This document shows positions 2,583 to 20,921 of a stretch of 22,451 nucleotides of DNA, in pieces. A program made the position numbers and the translations under genes. Every line of letters begins with the position of its first letter. Position 1 is the first letter of the stretch. Source of the stretch: a virus. The stretch lies in IMG/VR virus record IMGVR_UViG_3300036985_003666, positions 1 to 22,451 of that record; one strand, given 5' to 3'. The notes under the pieces are model-generated. The model was given only the letters and a program-made list of their open reading frames with translations. It searched no databases and was not told the DNA's origin.

Positions 2583-3188
2583 CTACCTGGCAATAATGGA
2601 AAGCGCGGTCTGAGTTGGGGACTGGAAGTACTTACCCTTGTCTCCCTGGACCAGTGCATTGAACCTCCCAGTGGTGCAATCATAGGCGAGGCAGGCAGCA
2701 CGAAGCAACGCCTCATCCTGCATATTGAAGGCCACCAGGGTCTCTGATCCAAGGGCACGGCCGGCGAAGACCCTGCAGGCCCGCTGGACGATGTAGTTCT
2801 GGAAGACGGCGGGGATGTCCTCGAAGTCGGCATCCCAGACAATGTCGAGGCTGACGGACGTGTTGACCCCCCAGTTGAAGCTATGGCTAAGGGTGTCGTA
2901 GAGCTTTCCGTTTCTCTGGATAGCACGGAACCGGAAATTGCAGTCCTCCTGGTTCACGCTCATGTTGAGGATGCCAGGGGGAATGATCAGCTCGCCGTTG
3001 CCGTTAGCCAGGAGGGTGTAGCCCTTTTCGGAGTTGAAGTTCCAGCCCTCACCAAGGACCTCCGAGCGTACGGTGTCCAGGATAAGGGTGGACGTAGCAA
3101 TCTCTGGGTTGGCCATATCGAGGCCGGTGATTGGCGCCTGACCAATGGAGGTCAGCATCGAGTTGACTGCTTGAAGCTGTGAAGTCAA
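2583..3188 (-). CDS. Tail tubular protein A (T7 gp11-like)
   Basis: 201 aa (T7 gp11 is 196). It forms the ring that joins the portal to the tail nozzle. Conserved pattern along the length: AVNSMLTSIGQAPITGLD at the N-terminus (T7 AVNDILASIGEPPVSTLE), then GWNFNSEKGYTLL, RNGKLYDTLSHSF, DFEDIPAVFQNYIVQRACRVFAGR (T7 [24 protein letters not shown]) and a helical C-terminus. The start is TTG at 3188, overlapping the HNH TGA as TTGA. There is no in-frame ATG until residue 11, which would cut into the conserved block. TAG is followed 2 bp later by the gp12-like ATG. Confidence 0.94.
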   Translation of the reverse strand: MTSQLQAVNSMLTSIGQAPITGLDMANPEIATSTLILDTVRSEVLGEGWNFNSEKGYTLLANGNGELIIPPGILNMSVNQEDCNFRFRAIQRNGKLYDTLSHSFNWGVNTSVSLDIVWDADFEDIPAVFQNYIVQRACRVFAGRALGSETLVAFNMQDEALLRAACLAYDCTTGRFNALVQGDKGKYFQSPTQTALSIIAR

Positions 3189-3640
3189 TGTCTTAAGTGC
3201 GGGGGATCAAGGAGGTAGTCGATGGCGCGGGCGAGGAGAAGGGGATCGTCCTTCAGGTTGCCGATGCCTATATTGCAGTGACCACAAAGCAGACCACGGA
3301 CTTTACCGGTGTCATGACAGTGGTCGATGTGGAACATTCCGTTTCTCTTGGGATCCGATGTCCCGCAGATGGCACAGCAGCCACCCTGTTTCTCGAGCTG
3401 CTGCTCATAGTTGGTAATGTCCCAGCCATACTTCCGTTTGTAGCTTTCCGCCCGCTTGACTTGCGCCAGGTTGGCTTGGAACTCGAGGCAGGGGTTGGTG
3501 TACTTCTTCTTGGATGAAGCTCTGGCAGCTGCTCTAGCGCACTCCTTGCATTGGCTCTGAAGGCCATCCCTGGTCTGAGAGTGGCGATTGAAGTCTTCAG
3601 GAGTCTTGATCTCGAGGCACTTGGAGCATGTCTTCATCAT
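3185..3640 (-). CDS. HNH endonuclease, Endonuclease VII-like, between capsid and tail genes
   Basis: 151 aa. An N-terminal zinc knuckle (C5, C8, C31, C34) and a Lys/Arg-rich linker lead to an Endonuclease VII fold. This fold has CCAICG (C89, C92), HIDHCH (104-109) with the catalytic D106-H107, and CGHCN (C119, C122, N123). Architecture and length match the HNH protein at 12511-12945, so the two are probably members of one mobile family. The gene lies between the capsid terminator and tail tubular protein A, where T7 has nothing comparable; a free-standing homing endonuclease is the likeliest reading. The start is ATG at 3640 (a second ATG follows directly). Its TGA overlaps the TTG of the tail gene. 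Confidence 0.88.
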   Translation of the reverse strand: MMKTCSKCLEIKTPEDFNRHSQTRDGLQSQCKECARAAARASSKKKYTNPCLEFQANLAQVKRAESYKRKYGWDITNYEQQLEKQGGCCAICGTSDPKRNGMFHIDHCHDTGKVRGLLCGHCNIGIGNLKDDPLLLARAIDYLLDPPHLRH

Positions 3641-3654
3641 GGGAGGTTATTCAA

Positions 3655-3685
3655 GAAAAAGGACCCAGGCTTGAATAAGCCCAGG
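3655..3685 (-). terminator. Rho-independent terminator after the major capsid gene
   Basis: On the minus strand a 9-bp stem (CCTGGGCTT with AAGCCTGGG, including two G-U pairs) closes a 4-nt ATTC loop at 3664-3685 and is followed within 3 nt by five T residues (3660-3656). It lies about 32 bp after the capsid stop, the same place as the T7 T-phi terminator after gene 10, and just before the HNH gene. Confidence 0.75.
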
Positions 3686-3716
3686 CCTTATTAAAGGTCA
3701 GGTGGATATACCTAAC

Positions 3717-4733
3717 TCACGCAAGATTCTGGAACTCGCCTGCAACGGAAACACGGACTGGGCCGGCTCCGAGTGCAAGTTTTCCGACAATGACGTCCCC
3801 CTGATATATCACCTTCGTATCTGCACCGGTGGTTTCGACACTTGGGCCGATTCCAGTTAGAACGGCAGCAGCATCCCGATGATAGATCAGGCCGCAGCTG
3901 TTGTTGAAGGTGGCGGGAGCGCCGTAGTTGTTGCGCTCACCGTAGGTGCCAGAGCCGCCCGTGACGACCGCCTCGATGGCGGTGCCGGTGGGGGAGCCGT
4001 AGCGACCCAGGAAGGGCACGTTGTTGGAACGGCGGATCTTGATGCCGGCGATCTCATAGAGACCTTCGCCGCTGTTCAGGTTACCCTGGGTGCCACCGAA
4101 ATCCCGGTTGAGGATGTTGGTGTCGACCTGGGAGACCAGGGCGTAATACTGACGAGGAGCCAGCACAGCGAAGCGGCCGTCCTTAGGAGCGGCAACTTCG
4201 TCCAGACGAGCGGCAGCTTCAAAGAAGCCGTCCACCAGAGCCTGGGCATTGTACTCTTGGTTGGCACCGATGTTGATCCGGAAGCCGCCAGGGTCGCCGG
4301 TAACAGGGGCGGACAGGGAGGCAGCACGGCTTAGGGTACGAGCAACACGACGGTCGTAGTGCTCAGCTAGAGCCTGACCGATCTGACGGCTGATGGGGCC
4401 ACGGATGTCGTACTGAGAGATCACCTCGTCGAGCTTGTAGACGAAGGCGCTGGCAATCAGCAGGTCGTCCAGCTCAACGGTGGTCTCAGCGGACGGGGGG
4501 TTGCCCGAGCCGAGGATAGCTGTACCAGGGGTGTGGTAAGCAGCGGAGATCCGGCCAGTGTGAATGAACTGGTGGGAGCGGCCACCGGAGATCGACTTGT
4601 TCAGGACGGTGTCCTTGAAGATCGTCGCGTTACGGAAGGCCTCGTACACCTCACCACTGAAGAGCTTCAGGAAGAGGGCGCGTTGGTCGCCGGCGCCATT
4701 GACGCGGCCGGGTTGGGTTACGGTAAAAGTCAC
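3717..4733 (-). CDS. Major capsid protein (T7 gp10-like)
   Basis: 338 aa (T7 gp10A is 345). It forms the icosahedral shell on the HK97 fold. The N-terminal segment (QPGRVNGAGDQRALFLKLFSGEVYEAF) and the blocks GRSHQFIHTGRISAAYHTPGT (about 50-70), DFGGTQGNLNSG and IAGIKIRRSNNVPFLG are typical of T7-like and cyanopodovirus capsid proteins. The reading frame has an in-frame TGA upstream and no ATG before the conserved N-terminus, so the start is GTG at 4733. No Shine-Dalgarno sequence precedes it, which is odd for the most abundant virion protein. A terminator follows. I see no slippery site suggesting a T7-style 10B frameshift product. Confidence 0.95.
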   Translation of the reverse strand: MTFTVTQPGRVNGAGDQRALFLKLFSGEVYEAFRNATIFKDTVLNKSISGGRSHQFIHTGRISAAYHTPGTAILGSGNPPSAETTVELDDLLIASAFVYKLDEVISQYDIRGPISRQIGQALAEHYDRRVARTLSRAASLSAPVTGDPGGFRINIGANQEYNAQALVDGFFEAAARLDEVAAPKDGRFAVLAPRQYYALVSQVDTNILNRDFGGTQGNLNSGEGLYEIAGIKIRRSNNVPFLGRYGSPTGTAIEAVVTGGSGTYGERNNYGAPATFNNSCGLIYHRDAAAVLTGIGPSVETTGADTKVIYQGDVIVGKLALGAGPVRVSVAGEFQNLA

Positions 4734-4916: not shown

Positions 4917-5759
4917 TTAGAGGAGTTCGCCGGAGACCGCAAGGCGGTTCTCGACGTCGATGCGGAAGGCAGGATCCTGGGCGTACAGAGGATTGGAGAG
5001 GTCGCGCCGGAGCTCGGCCTCGGAGCGATACCCCTTGACGCCTGGGTTCTTGGCCCGTCCACCGGATACCTGCTCCCCGTCGAAGCCCACGGCCGCCTTG
5101 TAGCGTTGCGTGAGGGCCTCCACGGCGAACTGAGTGGCCGCCTTGTTGCCTGAGGTGATTACCTGGTCGTAGGATGCCCGGTCCTCAGGGGATAGGTTCT
5201 CGGCCGCCCACTGCAGGGCCTGGTTGTAGGCCTCCTGGCCGCCTACTGCGGTGACGATCTCCGAGGCCTCAGCATCAGAGATAGGGGATACAAGGGGGGT
5301 CTGAGCCTGAAGCTCTTGCCATGCCTTGATCAGGTCAGCACTGGGCAGCTCCGAGAGCTTGGAGATGGTCGCCTCGTCCAGTTTGCCGTCGTTCTTGTAG
5401 AACTCCTCAGAGGCCTCCTTGAGGGCCGTGACGACCTCTGATTCCTCCTCTGCGGGTACTTCTTCAGTGGACTCCTCGGAGGCACCTTCAGGGGCATCCT
5501 CCGTGGACTCACCGTTCTTGGCCTGTTCGGCTTTGTAGGCTATCTCCTTCTGCAGCAGGTTGTAGACCTCGGCGGCCGTCTTGCCCTGGTACTTCTCCGG
5601 GAGCTGGCCGACCTCTGCTTCCTGAGCCTGACGGGCCCGGGTGAAGACGGCTTCCTCCTGTCGAGCCTCCTCTTCCGCAAGGCGGGTGCCTACCTCAAAA
5701 GCTTGCTGCTCCTGGGCGACCCGCATGGAGGCGTCGATCTCGTCGTTGATGACAGTCAT
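4917..5759 (-). CDS. Capsid assembly scaffolding protein (T7 gp9-like)
   Basis: 280 aa (T7 gp9 is 307). It drives procapsid assembly and leaves before DNA packaging. Identification rests on position between portal and major capsid genes, a very acidic, glutamate-rich and largely helical sequence (a run of Glu-rich residues around 83-105), and a C-terminal segment (241-280, with GYRSEAELRRDLSNPLY and DPAFRIDVENRL). That segment resembles the conserved scaffold C-terminus that contacts the capsid protein. ATG at 5759 is coupled to the preceding stop. TAA at 4917 is followed by the 183-bp gap before the capsid gene. Confidence 0.92.
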   Translation of the reverse strand: MTVINDEIDASMRVAQEQQAFEVGTRLAEEEARQEEAVFTRARQAQEAEVGQLPEKYQGKTAAEVYNLLQKEIAYKAEQAKNGESTEDAPEGASEESTEEVPAEEESEVVTALKEASEEFYKNDGKLDEATISKLSELPSADLIKAWQELQAQTPLVSPISDAEASEIVTAVGGQEAYNQALQWAAENLSPEDRASYDQVITSGNKAATQFAVEALTQRYKAAVGFDGEQVSGGRAKNPGVKGYRSEAELRRDLSNPLYAQDPAFRIDVENRLAVSGELL

Positions 5760-11795: not shown

Positions 11796-12514
11796 AGGAT
11801 GGGTGCGTGGGCCGTCCAATCATACTCCCCTGTTCGGAGAATCCGTGCAAGCTGGGCATTCTGGAGAGCGTCTGCTTCCGTGAGGCCAGCCTTGACGAAG
11901 GCACCGACCACCGCCTCCCACCAGAACTCCCTAGGGGTCTTGTTGAGCAGGGCCTGGGCCTTGACCGCTCCGATGCCGGGGCAGCCCTTGTAGCCATCCA
12001 CAGCGTCCCCTGTGAGGATCTGCTGGAAGAAGAAGTAGTCGCACTCCTCCAGGGTTGGCGTGGTTTCGTCTGCGCCATTCCACTGACGACACTGGATCTG
12101 TTTGAGATCCTTATCGGCGGAGATCAGCACCACGTTTTCGGTGGTCTGGTGGCAGCGCATCCCTAGGAGGTCATCGGCCTCTAGGCCTTCTTCCAGGTGA
12201 CAGGGGTAGGTTTCGCAGGCCCACTTGACAAGGCGGTGGAAGCCAAGTGGTTTCCGCTTGAGGCGGTGGCCTTTGTATTCAGGGTCGACGAGCTTACGAA
12301 AGTTGGCTCGACCTGTAAAGAAGAGCTCGACGTCTTGACACTGGAAGTGCTGCTTCCAGAGGTTCAGGGTCTCGAGGAAGCGGCGTTGAGCCTGTTTGAA
12401 GTCTGAGGCGACCATGTGCCAGTCCCCATGCTCTACCTCTACCTCACAGGATTGGCAAGAGGTGTAGGCCGGGGTGTCGGCGTCAATGAGAAGGATGTCG
12501 GGTCGTTTGATCAT
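11780..12514 (-). CDS. 5'-3' exonuclease (T7 gp6-like, FEN superfamily)
   Basis: 244 aa (T7 gp6 is 300). It removes RNA primers and degrades host DNA from 5' ends. Metal-binding acids of the FEN fold are visible in order: D11 and D13 (LLIDADTPAY), E112/D114/D115 (LEADDLLG), D134 and D136 (SADKDLKQ), and D170/D173 leading into the helix-turn segment around 176-184 (KGCPGIGAV), which grips duplex DNA. The C-terminal part (about 195-244) is helical and less conserved. The ATG at 12514 overlaps the HNH stop (ATGA). Confidence 0.93.
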   Translation of the reverse strand: MIKRPDILLIDADTPAYTSCQSCEVEVEHGDWHMVASDFKQAQRRFLETLNLWKQHFQCQDVELFFTGRANFRKLVDPEYKGHRLKRKPLGFHRLVKWACETYPCHLEEGLEADDLLGMRCHQTTENVVLISADKDLKQIQCRQWNGADETTPTLEECDYFFFQQILTGDAVDGYKGCPGIGAVKAQALLNKTPREFWWEAVVGAFVKAGLTEADALQNAQLARILRTGEYDWTAHAPILWTPS

Positions 12515-12945
12515 GTATTTCGAGCCTGGGCTCGTTGAAGGTATTGAAGGGCCCGCCCGAGTGATTCAATGGAATCGCCCAGCTTGCCTAAACCAGTGTT
12601 GCAGCCTTGGCAGATCCAGCCACGGAAGTATTCTCCAGCAGGATCGTGATCAAAGCACACCATCGCAGCTCCACGATGGTGCGTCATAGGAGTTCCACAG
12701 TTTTCGCATGGTGTCTTCTCGGGAGGACGATGCTGGGAAAGGGGCTGGGTGCGTCCCACCATTTTACCAAACTGCTTCTTGTAAGCTCGCTGCTTCGACA
12801 TCGCGGATGTCACGTTGCAAGACTTACAGGCACTCATTTTACGGACTTGCCCAGATCTCCGGGTGTTGTCAGCGTGGAAGTTGTCCCAGGATTTGTAGAC
12901 ACCGCATTTGGTGCAAGTTCTCCCAAGATCATCAAGAGGTGACAT
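12511..12945 (-). CDS. HNH endonuclease, Endonuclease VII-like, between DNA polymerase and exonuclease
   Basis: 144 aa. An N-terminal zinc knuckle (C11, C14, C40, C43) is followed by a basic linker and a C-terminal Endonuclease VII-type HNH fold. In that fold C80/C83 and C112/C115 hold zinc, and FDHD (98-101) and N116 supply the catalytic His/Asn set. Such proteins cut DNA, either as branch resolvases or as free-standing homing endonucleases. The gene sits exactly between the polymerase and exonuclease genes, sharing one base with the polymerase stop (TGATG) and four with the exonuclease start (ATGA). It has the same two-part architecture as the HNH gene at 3185-3640. Homing enzyme near the polymerase gene is the likelier role, since endonuclease I is already present; this is an inference. 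Confidence 0.88.
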   Translation of the reverse strand: MSPLDDLGRTCTKCGVYKSWDNFHADNTRRSGQVRKMSACKSCNVTSAMSKQRAYKKQFGKMVGRTQPLSQHRPPEKTPCENCGTPMTHHRGAAMVCFDHDPAGEYFRGWICQGCNTGLGKLGDSIESLGRALQYLQRAQARNT

Positions 12946-18147: not shown

Positions 18148-18327
18148 TCAGCCCCGGTTGAGACGATCGACCTCCTCCTCGAGATCGTTGACCTGAGAAG
18201 TCAGAGACGCGAGGGAGGTGTTGATTTCCTCGACCACACTGACTAACTTGACGTTTCCGGCAGCCAGGTTGTGGACCTGTTTGGCCAGTTCAGCCAGCGT
18301 AGCAGCATCTTGGGATCGGGAGGACAT
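18148..18327 (-). CDS. Small coiled-coil protein, 59 aa
   Basis: ATG at 18327 shares one base with the RNA polymerase stop (TGATG), and the ORF ends with TGA at 18148. Nearly the whole protein can be read as heptads with Leu/Val at core positions, and it ends in a run of glutamates followed by Asp-Arg-Leu-Asn-Arg-Gly. A short dimeric or oligomeric coiled coil is the best structural guess. No family is recognised. The overlap with the polymerase stop supports it being translated. Confidence 0.6.
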   Translation of the reverse strand: MSSRSQDAATLAELAKQVHNLAAGNVKLVSVVEEINTSLASLTSQVNDLEEEVDRLNRG

Positions 18328-20921
18328 CAGCAGAAAAGGTAGTTGGATTGGCGAATATCAGCTGGGTTGAGGGTGTTGATCATAACCTCAGGATCCAGGG
18401 GGACCCCGAGCTGATCAGCCCAGTTGCGCAGTTGAGGTTCCGCGTACATCGTAGCAAACGTATCCCGAATGTGATCCATGGTCCAGTGGACGTCGCAGCT
18501 CAGGGTTGAGATGCAGTCGTGGACCAAGGCAATGGGGCGCTCCCAGTCGACGAAGGCCTGATGGAGCAGGGCGGCATCGAAGGCGTGGATCAGGTTGGGG
18601 ACCGATCCAATGGTGATCTTGCGGGTGTTGAGGGGTGCGTGTTCGGCGTCGAAGTCAGCCACCGTGAGGCGGATGCGCTTTCCCATGAGCTTGGTGTCGA
18701 CCAGTTCAGTGGGAAAGACTCGTTTGTCGAGAACCACAGGGAAGCCTGAGGGGCTTGTGAAGGCCACAGGGAGGCCGGTGTCGTTGGCTGCCTGGTCGAC
18801 GGCCTGCTGGATCCACTTCCGAGCCTTCATGGGGCCAGGAAGGACCTCAGGGATGGCCTTAACGTAGACGGCCTGCACAAGGTCCTGGAGAGGGATCCCG
18901 TGACCCTTAAGAAGGGCTTGACGCAGGTAGTCCCGGGCAGAGCTCTGGGTGAGGCCGTAGGGCAGGCACATGACGACCCGCTTGGTGAGCTTGCGGGTGA
19001 TCAGGGGGTGGAACTCCTCCGGGAGGTGAGGCTTGGCTGCCTCGGCCACGGTCTTGTAGGCGTCGGAGGGGCGTTCGGTAGGAGCCACGTTGACCAGCTC
19101 GGCGGCCTTCCGGTCCCTGGTGAGGGCCGAGAGGTGCTGGAGGCCCGAGCAGGTGGCATCAAAGCCGACCAGGAGGTTTGACCAGGAGCGGGTCTTTGCA
19201 ATGAAGCAGGCGTGGAACTCGATGCAGGCTGCCAGGAACTGCCAGGGCTCGTCGGCTGCTTGCCAGGTGGAGATCGTGCCAATGGGGTCCAGGGCAACCC
19301 CTTCGATCAGGCCTTGGCTGGCCTCGACCCATAGCTGACGATCCATCATGGTCTCCTTACCCAGGCCGTAGGTGGTGGCTACCTGGAAGCCTAGCCACTC
19401 GCGGTCAGCAGGTCCTGAGTAGGCCGACACCAGGAGGGAGCGAGCAAAGTCGGTGCCCTGTGGATGGAGGTGGTTAGCCAAGGGGTAGACGCGACCCCGG
19501 AAGTCAAAGGACCACGGGAACCAGAATGACTCCTCGTCCTGGTACATCTTGGCAATGTGGATGGTCTCGGTGGTCTGGTAGTTGCGTTGGGCCAGCAAGA
19601 GGTTTTCCTCTTCGACCAAGACCCGACCCCTTTTGTAGGTCACCTGTTCTTCTTCTGTGGCCGTTTCCCAGGGATCTGGCTTGTGAGGAAGAGGCAGGGG
19701 GTCCGAGTTGCGGAAGGATCCGATCGACACCCGAGCCTCCTGACACCTGAGGGCTACTTCGAGGAGAGGTTTGTTGATTTGAAAGGCTACCTGCTGGATA
19801 GCATTCAGGAAGCGGACTGGGACCTCAAGAGAAGGGACACCTGGGGAAGGATGACACCTAGCAGGGACATGCTCAACGTTTGAGCTGGATTCCTGGGGAT
19901 GAAGAGGAGAAGAAACAAGTATAGCTGGATTATTTGTTTTGGGGCTCTCGCCCCCCTGGATTAATGTGAGGGCGGTTTCGCCTTCTCTCTTTACAGTGGC
20001 AAGCTCTGAGAAGCCTTGCTGTGACTGGGGTCTGAGATTGGTCTCTTCTTCGGGTCTCTCTTTCAGTGGAAAGCTCTGAGAAGCCTTGCTATGACTGAGT
20101 CCTCGGATAAGACGCCCTCGGCTCCCAGATCGGAGCTCTGCGGTGAGGTAGCCCCCTGATTCAGCTTGCAGATCAGGCTGCCAGTTGTTGGGTTCACAGA
20201 GCATGGGCCAGTAGCAGGCAGAGACGGCCTCAGCGGCCTTCATCAGGGCCTCTATGAAGGTAAGGACCTCAGGGGCAGCCTTGAGGGTCGTGAGCTGTCG
20301 TCCACGGCCGGTGAAGGTGTTGATGCTATGGAACCAGCCAGTGGCAGAGCACAGGCGATCCAGGAGCCATGCACCCACCTTGGTCTTTTGGCTGTGGGTC
20401 CAGGAGAGGGCCTCGTGAGAGATCCGACGCATGGCAGCGCGGTACTTGGCCACCCGGTAGCCGTAGCCTTTGGTTTTGTGGATGCGGGTGTTGCTGTAGG
20501 CCTCGGGTTGAGCTTGTGAGAATTGGGAGAGGAGGCACTCGTCGTAGACCCTGACGCCGATGCCTCTGACCACATGAGTCAGGGGGATGCCGTGCGGGGA
20601 GCGTTGGTCCTTGGAGAAGACCAGGTCGACGGCGGTCTTGACGGTGATCAGGGCCAGGGTTGAGGAAGGGATGTTGCTGAGGAGGGCTGTGGCTGCGGCA
20701 AACTCCCCGGTGGAGCCTGAGGCGATTTGGTTGCGTTTGGCCTCGATGGCCTCGATGGTGGCCCCCAGGCCTTGGTCTACGAGTTTCTGCCCGTACAAGG
20801 CGCTGGAGGCATAGCTACGCTCTTCTGCCCGGGTGGTGGCCAGGCGGAGCCGTTCGACTCCCTCCTGGTGGGCTTGGAGTTCACGCTGGAACTGGCGCTG
20901 GAGTTGAGCGGGGGTTGCCAT
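18327..20921 (-). CDS. T7-like single-subunit DNA-directed RNA polymerase
   Basis: 864 aa (T7 gp1 is 883). It transcribes the phage middle and late genes from phage-specific promoters. Motif A (residues 586-600) carries the catalytic D588 in the family pattern D-x-CSG-x-QH. Motif B has R643, K647 and Y655-G656 with the same spacing as T7 R627, K631 and Y639. Motif C is HDC with catalytic D802, where T7 has HDS. A conserved block near residues 474-479 (FDFRGRVYP) also matches the family. The C-terminus is Tyr-Leu-Phe-Cys, not the T7 FAFA foot. Between the conserved segment at about 250-280 and the helix starting near 370 there is about 75 aa more than in T7. This extra stretch is Ser/Pro/Glu-rich and is reported separately. 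Start ATG at 20921 abuts the preceding stop; the TGA shares one base with the next ATG. Confidence 0.97.
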   Translation of the reverse strand: MATPAQLQRQFQRELQAHQEGVERLRLATTRAEERSYASSALYGQKLVDQGLGATIEAIEAKRNQIASGSTGEFAAATALLSNIPSSTLALITVKTAVDLVFSKDQRSPHGIPLTHVVRGIGVRVYDECLLSQFSQAQPEAYSNTRIHKTKGYGYRVAKYRAAMRRISHEALSWTHSQKTKVGAWLLDRLCSATGWFHSINTFTGRGRQLTTLKAAPEVLTFIEALMKAAEAVSACYWPMLCEPNNWQPDLQAESGGYLTAELRSGSRGRLIRGLSHSKASQSFPLKERPEEETNLRPQSQQGFSELATVKREGETALTLIQGGESPKTNNPAILVSSPLHPQESSSNVEHVPARCHPSPGVPSLEVPVRFLNAIQQVAFQINKPLLEVALRCQEARVSIGSFRNSDPLPLPHKPDPWETATEEEQVTYKRGRVLVEEENLLLAQRNYQTTETIHIAKMYQDEESFWFPWSFDFRGRVYPLANHLHPQGTDFARSLLVSAYSGPADREWLGFQVATTYGLGKETMMDRQLWVEASQGLIEGVALDPIGTISTWQAADEPWQFLAACIEFHACFIAKTRSWSNLLVGFDATCSGLQHLSALTRDRKAAELVNVAPTERPSDAYKTVAEAAKPHLPEEFHPLITRKLTKRVVMCLPYGLTQSSARDYLRQALLKGHGIPLQDLVQAVYVKAIPEVLPGPMKARKWIQQAVDQAANDTGLPVAFTSPSGFPVVLDKRVFPTELVDTKLMGKRIRLTVADFDAEHAPLNTRKITIGSVPNLIHAFDAALLHQAFVDWERPIALVHDCISTLSCDVHWTMDHIRDTFATMYAEPQLRNWADQLGVPLDPEVMINTLNPADIRQSNYLFC
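19985..20100. repeat. Imperfect direct repeat inside the RNA polymerase gene, read in two frames
   Basis: Two copies of a segment of about 45 bp lie at 19985-20030 and 20056-20100. The 20-bp core AAGCTCTGAGAAGCCTTGCT is identical at 20001-20020 and 20071-20090, an offset of exactly 70 bp; over 37 aligned positions about 33 match. Because 70 is not a multiple of three, the two copies are translated in different frames of the polymerase gene. The copy at 20056-20100 encodes the T7-like HSKAS segment, while the other yields an unrelated peptide. Confidence 0.85.

Follow-up and report, generated by a model that had tools for sequence, protein, structure and literature searches.

Homology between an in-frame RNA polymerase insertion and a structured noncoding element in a clade of T7-like cyanophages

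From what DNA does a T7-type RNA polymerase gain a loop some 75 residues longer than that of T7 itself, and is that DNA still anything other than protein-coding sequence? The question is raised by the window analysed here, a T7-like cyanophage contig of 22,451 bp, whose minus strand carries all of the genes for RNA polymerase, DNA polymerase, primase-helicase, portal, capsid and tail proteins.

The polymerase gene and its insertion

18327-20921, minus strand: T7-type single-subunit RNA polymerase gene, 864 amino acids (open reading frame, domain and fold matches)
19824-20102, minus strand: in-frame insertion, residues 274-366, about 90 residues (codon counts of relatives, pLDDT, T7 register)

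The window polymerase has the RNA_pol and RPOL_N domains (PF00940, 1.2e-58; PF14700, 2.8e-16) and the T7 fold of T7-type RNA polymerases (Autographiviridae), and its model superimposes on the T7 RNA polymerase elongation complex 1s76 with a Z-score of 33.1 and an rmsd of 4.8 over 739 residues. An alignment to T7 polymerase sequences taken from solved structures shows that the insertion immediately follows the counterpart of T7 R298 and stands in place of about T7 residues 299-314. The gain of about 75 residues over T7 given in the earlier note is correct; it is counted from the HSK motif and lies between T7 R298 and about P314. The likeness of HSKAS to the T7 sequence THSKK is probably coincidental, because HSKAS is itself encoded by the DNA of the inserted element. 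When the insertion is mapped on an AlphaFold2 model, as had been proposed, it is left as a loop following the residue that matches T7 R298; residues 275-362 have a pLDDT below 50 and most of the remaining model exceeds 70, so that the loop is probably disordered. A single-subunit RNA polymerase loop that apparently tolerates about 90 extra residues should be useful for polymerase engineering.

A first protein scan of genome contigs found no relative. Scans of viral contigs yielded seven loci from one clade, with four distinct insertions, and an eighth clade locus, G005 (polymerase 75% identical), was reached via a DNA pattern. Six distinct insertions could be compared, that of the window and those of five relatives (polymerases 74-76% identical). 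Between the GGYL and FLN motifs they contain 118 (window), 94, 87, 87, 80 and 78 codons; the same interval has 35 codons in Syn5, 33 in S-TIP28 and a similarly short length, roughly 30-40 codons, in about 75 other, more distant cyanophage polymerases. The T7-type polymerases of Syn5 and other cyanopodoviruses belong to the same family (roughly 34-48% identical to that of the window), but their loop is about 30-40 residues long (GGYL to MLN), and the genomes tested contain no copy of the element described below. An insertion of about 45-60 residues is therefore clade-wide and old. Whether the insertion is lineage-specific, a point raised in the earlier note, thus has a divided answer: the whole clade has it, with variable sequence, and a 70-bp duplication inside it is confined to the window.

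The noncoding counterpart downstream of the terminase gene

Searches of the relatives' records with the insertion DNA revealed homology (E 1e-8 to 1e-27) to a structured noncoding element of these phages, which lies in the gap separating the terminase gene from the first early gene. In G001 (45,280 bp), apparently circularised given its 99-bp end overlap, this second copy, 86% identical over 70 nt (E 2.3e-14), is in noncoding DNA at 44892-45060; on one side are the terminase gene end and a short reading frame on the minus strand, on the other the first early gene. The intergenic copy of G005 (45,195 bp, 127-bp end overlap), at 37051-37107, is also just downstream of the terminase gene, and a degenerate-pattern search located the element in L140, L141/L145, L142, L148/L149/L152, L150 and L151 as well. 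An identical 123 bp forms the end of L141 and that of the contig of L004 (G002), so the assembler has probably broken a single genome into these two contigs; the gene and intergenic copies of this pair are 77% identical over 92 nt. The window's insertion is most similar to the intergenic copy of L150, with 78% identity over 134 nt (E 9.4e-24). In all, the sample comprises two complete clade genomes and three same-genome pairs.

A covariance model of 72 positions (R1) finds exactly two copies in each of the circularised genomes G001 and G005, one intergenic and one in the polymerase gene. In the window it recognises:

19958-20028, minus strand: full-length element copy in the polymerase gene (67 bits, E 1.8e-16)
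20043-20098, minus strand: duplicated half copy, overlapping repeat copy A described below (E 1.5e-9)

The model detects no credible element copy in Syn5, S-CBP2, S-SRP01, S-TIP28, SS120-1 or L016, and a weak match in G015 (24 nt, E 0.001) was judged to be noise. The intergenic copy has no blastn match among 50,697 phage records, and a 17-mer pattern gave one true match (L088/G005) and three chance matches in viral contigs. A host or bacterial source was discarded: the degenerate pattern matched seven times in 84,980 genomes, in unrelated phyla and always chance-like. Rfam contains no credible match at E up to 10 in 19600-20300, none at the gathering threshold in the whole window, and no family matching the intergenic copy.

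Conservation was counted over 14 distinct copies. AGCTT(T/G)CC and GCGAAACCGC are invariant in all of them, and no invariant run in the six gene copies is longer than GCGAAACCGC. It is read as TRNR (phase 2) in three phages and as ETA (phase 1) in the other three. Because an invariant run is read in two codon phases, its conservation is at the nucleotide level; selection on the protein cannot account for the two phases. The same run forms the core of the first of two hairpins:

19971-19982, minus strand: hairpin P1, GGCG-AAAC-CGCC, core GCGAAACCGC
19891-19960, minus strand: long hairpin P2, predicted by folding (z -1.9 for this copy), including GGGGC-GAGA-GCCCC

P1 is GGCG-AAAC-CGCC in the window and G005 and CGCG-AAAC-CGCG in most other copies, the arm change amounting to one clear compensatory pair. 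Most copies have a longer hairpin after P1, with differing arm sequences; the 3' arm of P2 is the inverted complement of the G005 5' arm (27 nt, 92.6%). The GGGGC-GAGA-GCCCC hairpin of the earlier note is present at 19941-19954 and on its own forms an alternative fold of the P2 region; it is part of the structure of the element and not incidental. The short repeat AGCTGGATT, likewise noted before, is found at 19883 and 19923. Folding z-scores range from -1.3 to -4.3 for intergenic copies and from -0.9 to -3.2 for gene copies, with a background of -0.44 ± 1.02 for tiles over polymerase genes, giving moderate support for RNA structure in the gene copies. As we picture it, the element would consist of a single-stranded AGAGCTTTCC, hairpin P1 and long hairpin P2, in about 130-170 nt.

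The surroundings of the intergenic copy are themselves structured. G001 44820-45200 (L124 1430-1810), like the same place in L140-L151 and G005, is an extended noncoding tract that follows the terminase gene and contains several hairpins; it is possibly the left-end control or packaging region of the clade. Just before the first early gene, many clade members have a palindrome, GTGCC-AGTGGCAC or GTGCC-ACTGGCAC. A sigma-70 promoter or intrinsic terminator was sought in the G001 intergenic copy and none was found, the noncoding gaps of G001, G005 and the window contain no repeated promoter-like 9-mer, and the motifs CTATAG and GACACC were rejected as phage promoters for want of specificity.

Reading frame, duplication and exchange between copies

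The polymerase frame contains no stop codon in any of the six distinct insertions, the other two frames having one to five stops each; of the eight intergenic copies, seven are interrupted by stops in every frame. Gene copies differ in length by multiples of three and their indels compensate each other: L003 is out of phase with L002 around the invariant 10-mer and then returns to phase. Given this open frame and indels summing to multiples of three, the gene copies are under constraint to stay readable throughout, and they are presumably translated, since an open frame is consistently retained in the polymerase copies alone. In the insertion region GC3 is lower (0.48-0.59) than in whole polymerase genes (0.72-0.78), which fits recruited noncoding DNA.

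The window's insertion contains, in addition, a direct repeat:

20061-20108, minus strand: tandem repeat copy A, upstream in the gene and in the ancestral frame, encoding HSKASQSFPL (repeat search)
19991-20038, minus strand: tandem repeat copy B, out of phase, encoding QGFSELATVK (repeat search and phase comparison)

As the earlier note had observed, the two copies are offset by 70 bp; they are 83% identical over 48 nt and have a 20-nt exact core, AGCAAGGCTTCTCAGAGCTT. A 17-mer from this core occurs twice in the window, and none of 100 dinucleotide shuffles gave two matches, even with three mismatches. As 70 is not a multiple of 3, the copies are read in different frames, one as QSFPL (AGCTTTCC, codon phase 0) and the other as SELAT (AGCTTGCC, phase 1). 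The proposal of a recent tandem duplication turned into coding sequence holds in that a duplication did occur in the window's lineage; it provides only about 70 of about 280 nt, however, and is not of very recent date, given that its copies have 83% identity and differ by a 1-nt indel. It is absent from all five of the other distinct relatives, and both of its copies are of the polymerase-gene and not the intergenic type. It accounts for only about 23 residues of the insertion. The window loop is 24 codons longer than that of the longest relative, and the 72-nt difference from G005 is made up of the 70 duplicated nucleotides and 2 nt from other indels; the duplication therefore explains the surplus codons. 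Exact direct repeats also occur in the early region of G001 (3159-3750 and 4995-5410), with 15-mer runs about 454 and 394 nt apart, which suggests recent duplications there.

A tree pairs the window gene copy with the intergenic copy of L150 (UFBoot 95), apart from the other gene copies; it is based on about 140 nt and is weakly supported outside this pair. The pairing suggests gene conversion between the loci in the window's lineage. Clear concerted evolution is not seen in the same-genome pairs G001, G005 and L004/L141, and general concerted evolution of gene and intergenic copies was set aside, the window and L150 being the sole supporting pair. A diversity-generating retroelement was also rejected: the differences between gene and intergenic copies include indels and affect all bases, not only template adenines.

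Origin of the insertion and possible role of the element

We favour, as probable, the in-frame capture of a self-derived noncoding hairpin element by the RNA polymerase gene in the clade ancestor. This reading draws on the homology between two loci, the presence of one copy at each in both circularised genomes, the absence of the element from the outgroups tested, an open frame kept consistently in the gene only, and conservation independent of codon phase. The element between the terminase and early genes would have been copied in frame into the polymerase loop, after the T7 R298 match, with the intergenic copy as donor and the gene as recipient. The enzyme would tolerate the translated copy as a disordered loop on its surface, and the copy may be kept element-like by occasional gene conversion or by selection at the nucleotide level. 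In the window's lineage, the 70-bp duplication within the gene copy and compensating small indels would then have lengthened the loop. The clade would be a candidate case, among phages, in which an essential gene has captured a structured noncoding element in frame and the likely source copy survives at a fixed place in the same genome, and would allow a test of how noncoding DNA becomes protein.

The direction of transfer is not polarised, because both complete clade genomes have both copies and the outgroups neither. The insertion could accordingly have come first and a piece of it been copied to the left-end intergenic region; similarity that may extend a few codons upstream of the insertion (GACCC...TGATTCGA) and an AGCTATA loop common to the L150 intergenic copy and the gene copies agree with this. 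We nevertheless hold this order to be unlikely, in view of the nucleotide-level, phase-independent conservation within the gene, the stops in most intergenic copies, their more stable folding, and the atypically low GC3 of the gene copy. Still less likely is plain protein loop expansion, in which an unconstrained, fast-evolving surface loop grew by tandem duplication and indels with no noncoding donor. The disordered loop, its variable peptide and the true tandem duplication in the window all suit such growth, and for the 70-bp step it is the correct reading; taken as the whole explanation it is contradicted, leaving unexplained both the homologous noncoding DNA in the same genomes and the invariant 10-mer read in two phases. 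That the segment is an intron or is bypassed by the ribosome, and so missing from the protein, is scarcely credible, even for a structured segment midway in an essential gene and with bypassed hairpin elements on record in Magnusiomyces mitochondria (PMC6649704): the six variants share the same stop-free frame, multiple-of-three differences and compensating indels, the extra sequence of about 135-250 nt is short for a group I or II intron, and Rfam has no match, all of which makes splicing unlikely.

Returning to the captured element, its location, with the terminase gene on one side and the early genes on the other, suggests a signal for the end of the genome or for left-end control; a left-end leader, an end-of-late-operon signal and a genome-end signal are candidate roles, and the likeliest function is one exerted in cis, at the nucleotide level, on phage transcription or on DNA processing. 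The analysis points to an uncharacterised element at the genome left end of this cyanopodovirus clade. In T7, the concatemer junction and left-end control region is a structured noncoding stretch between the terminase and early genes; the likeness is one of position and structuredness, and no copy of the element is known in T7 gene 1. More speculatively, and in our judgement doubtful, the gene copy could itself be a working regulatory element: a common factor (phage polymerase, terminase or RNase) would read both copies, tying polymerase expression to a genome-end event and giving the polymerase gene a dual-coding regulatory RNA or DNA module. The system allows a test of such retention of a regulatory element within the polymerase gene.

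Rickettsia palindromic elements (Ogata et al. 2000), palindromes of about 150 bp lying in frame in protein genes (PMC10969869; PMC6649704), are the nearest parallel. They form hairpins. Like the polymerase insertion, they lie in frame and are apparently translated as an added segment, and the host reading frame of the polymerase stays open. Hairpins are predicted in all copies of the phage element, with stability only moderately above background in several gene copies. The Rickettsia elements are, however, dispersed in dozens of unrelated genes, whereas the phage element has two fixed copies per complete genome and no sign of transposition. For lack of this dispersal we do not class it with them; it resembles them in effect. 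The bypassing elements of Magnusiomyces mitochondria are hairpin elements in essential genes that are not translated (PMC6649704), whereas the frame is open in all variants of the phage gene copy.

Elsewhere on the minus strand of the window there are two free-standing genes of the recombination endonuclease VII type (PF02945), one at 3185-3640 and one at 12511-12945; one of them lies between the capsid and tail genes and the other adjoins the DNA polymerase gene. A gene resembling the large chain of ribonucleotide reductase (PF02867, 9410-10864, minus strand) is located between the structural and replication genes.
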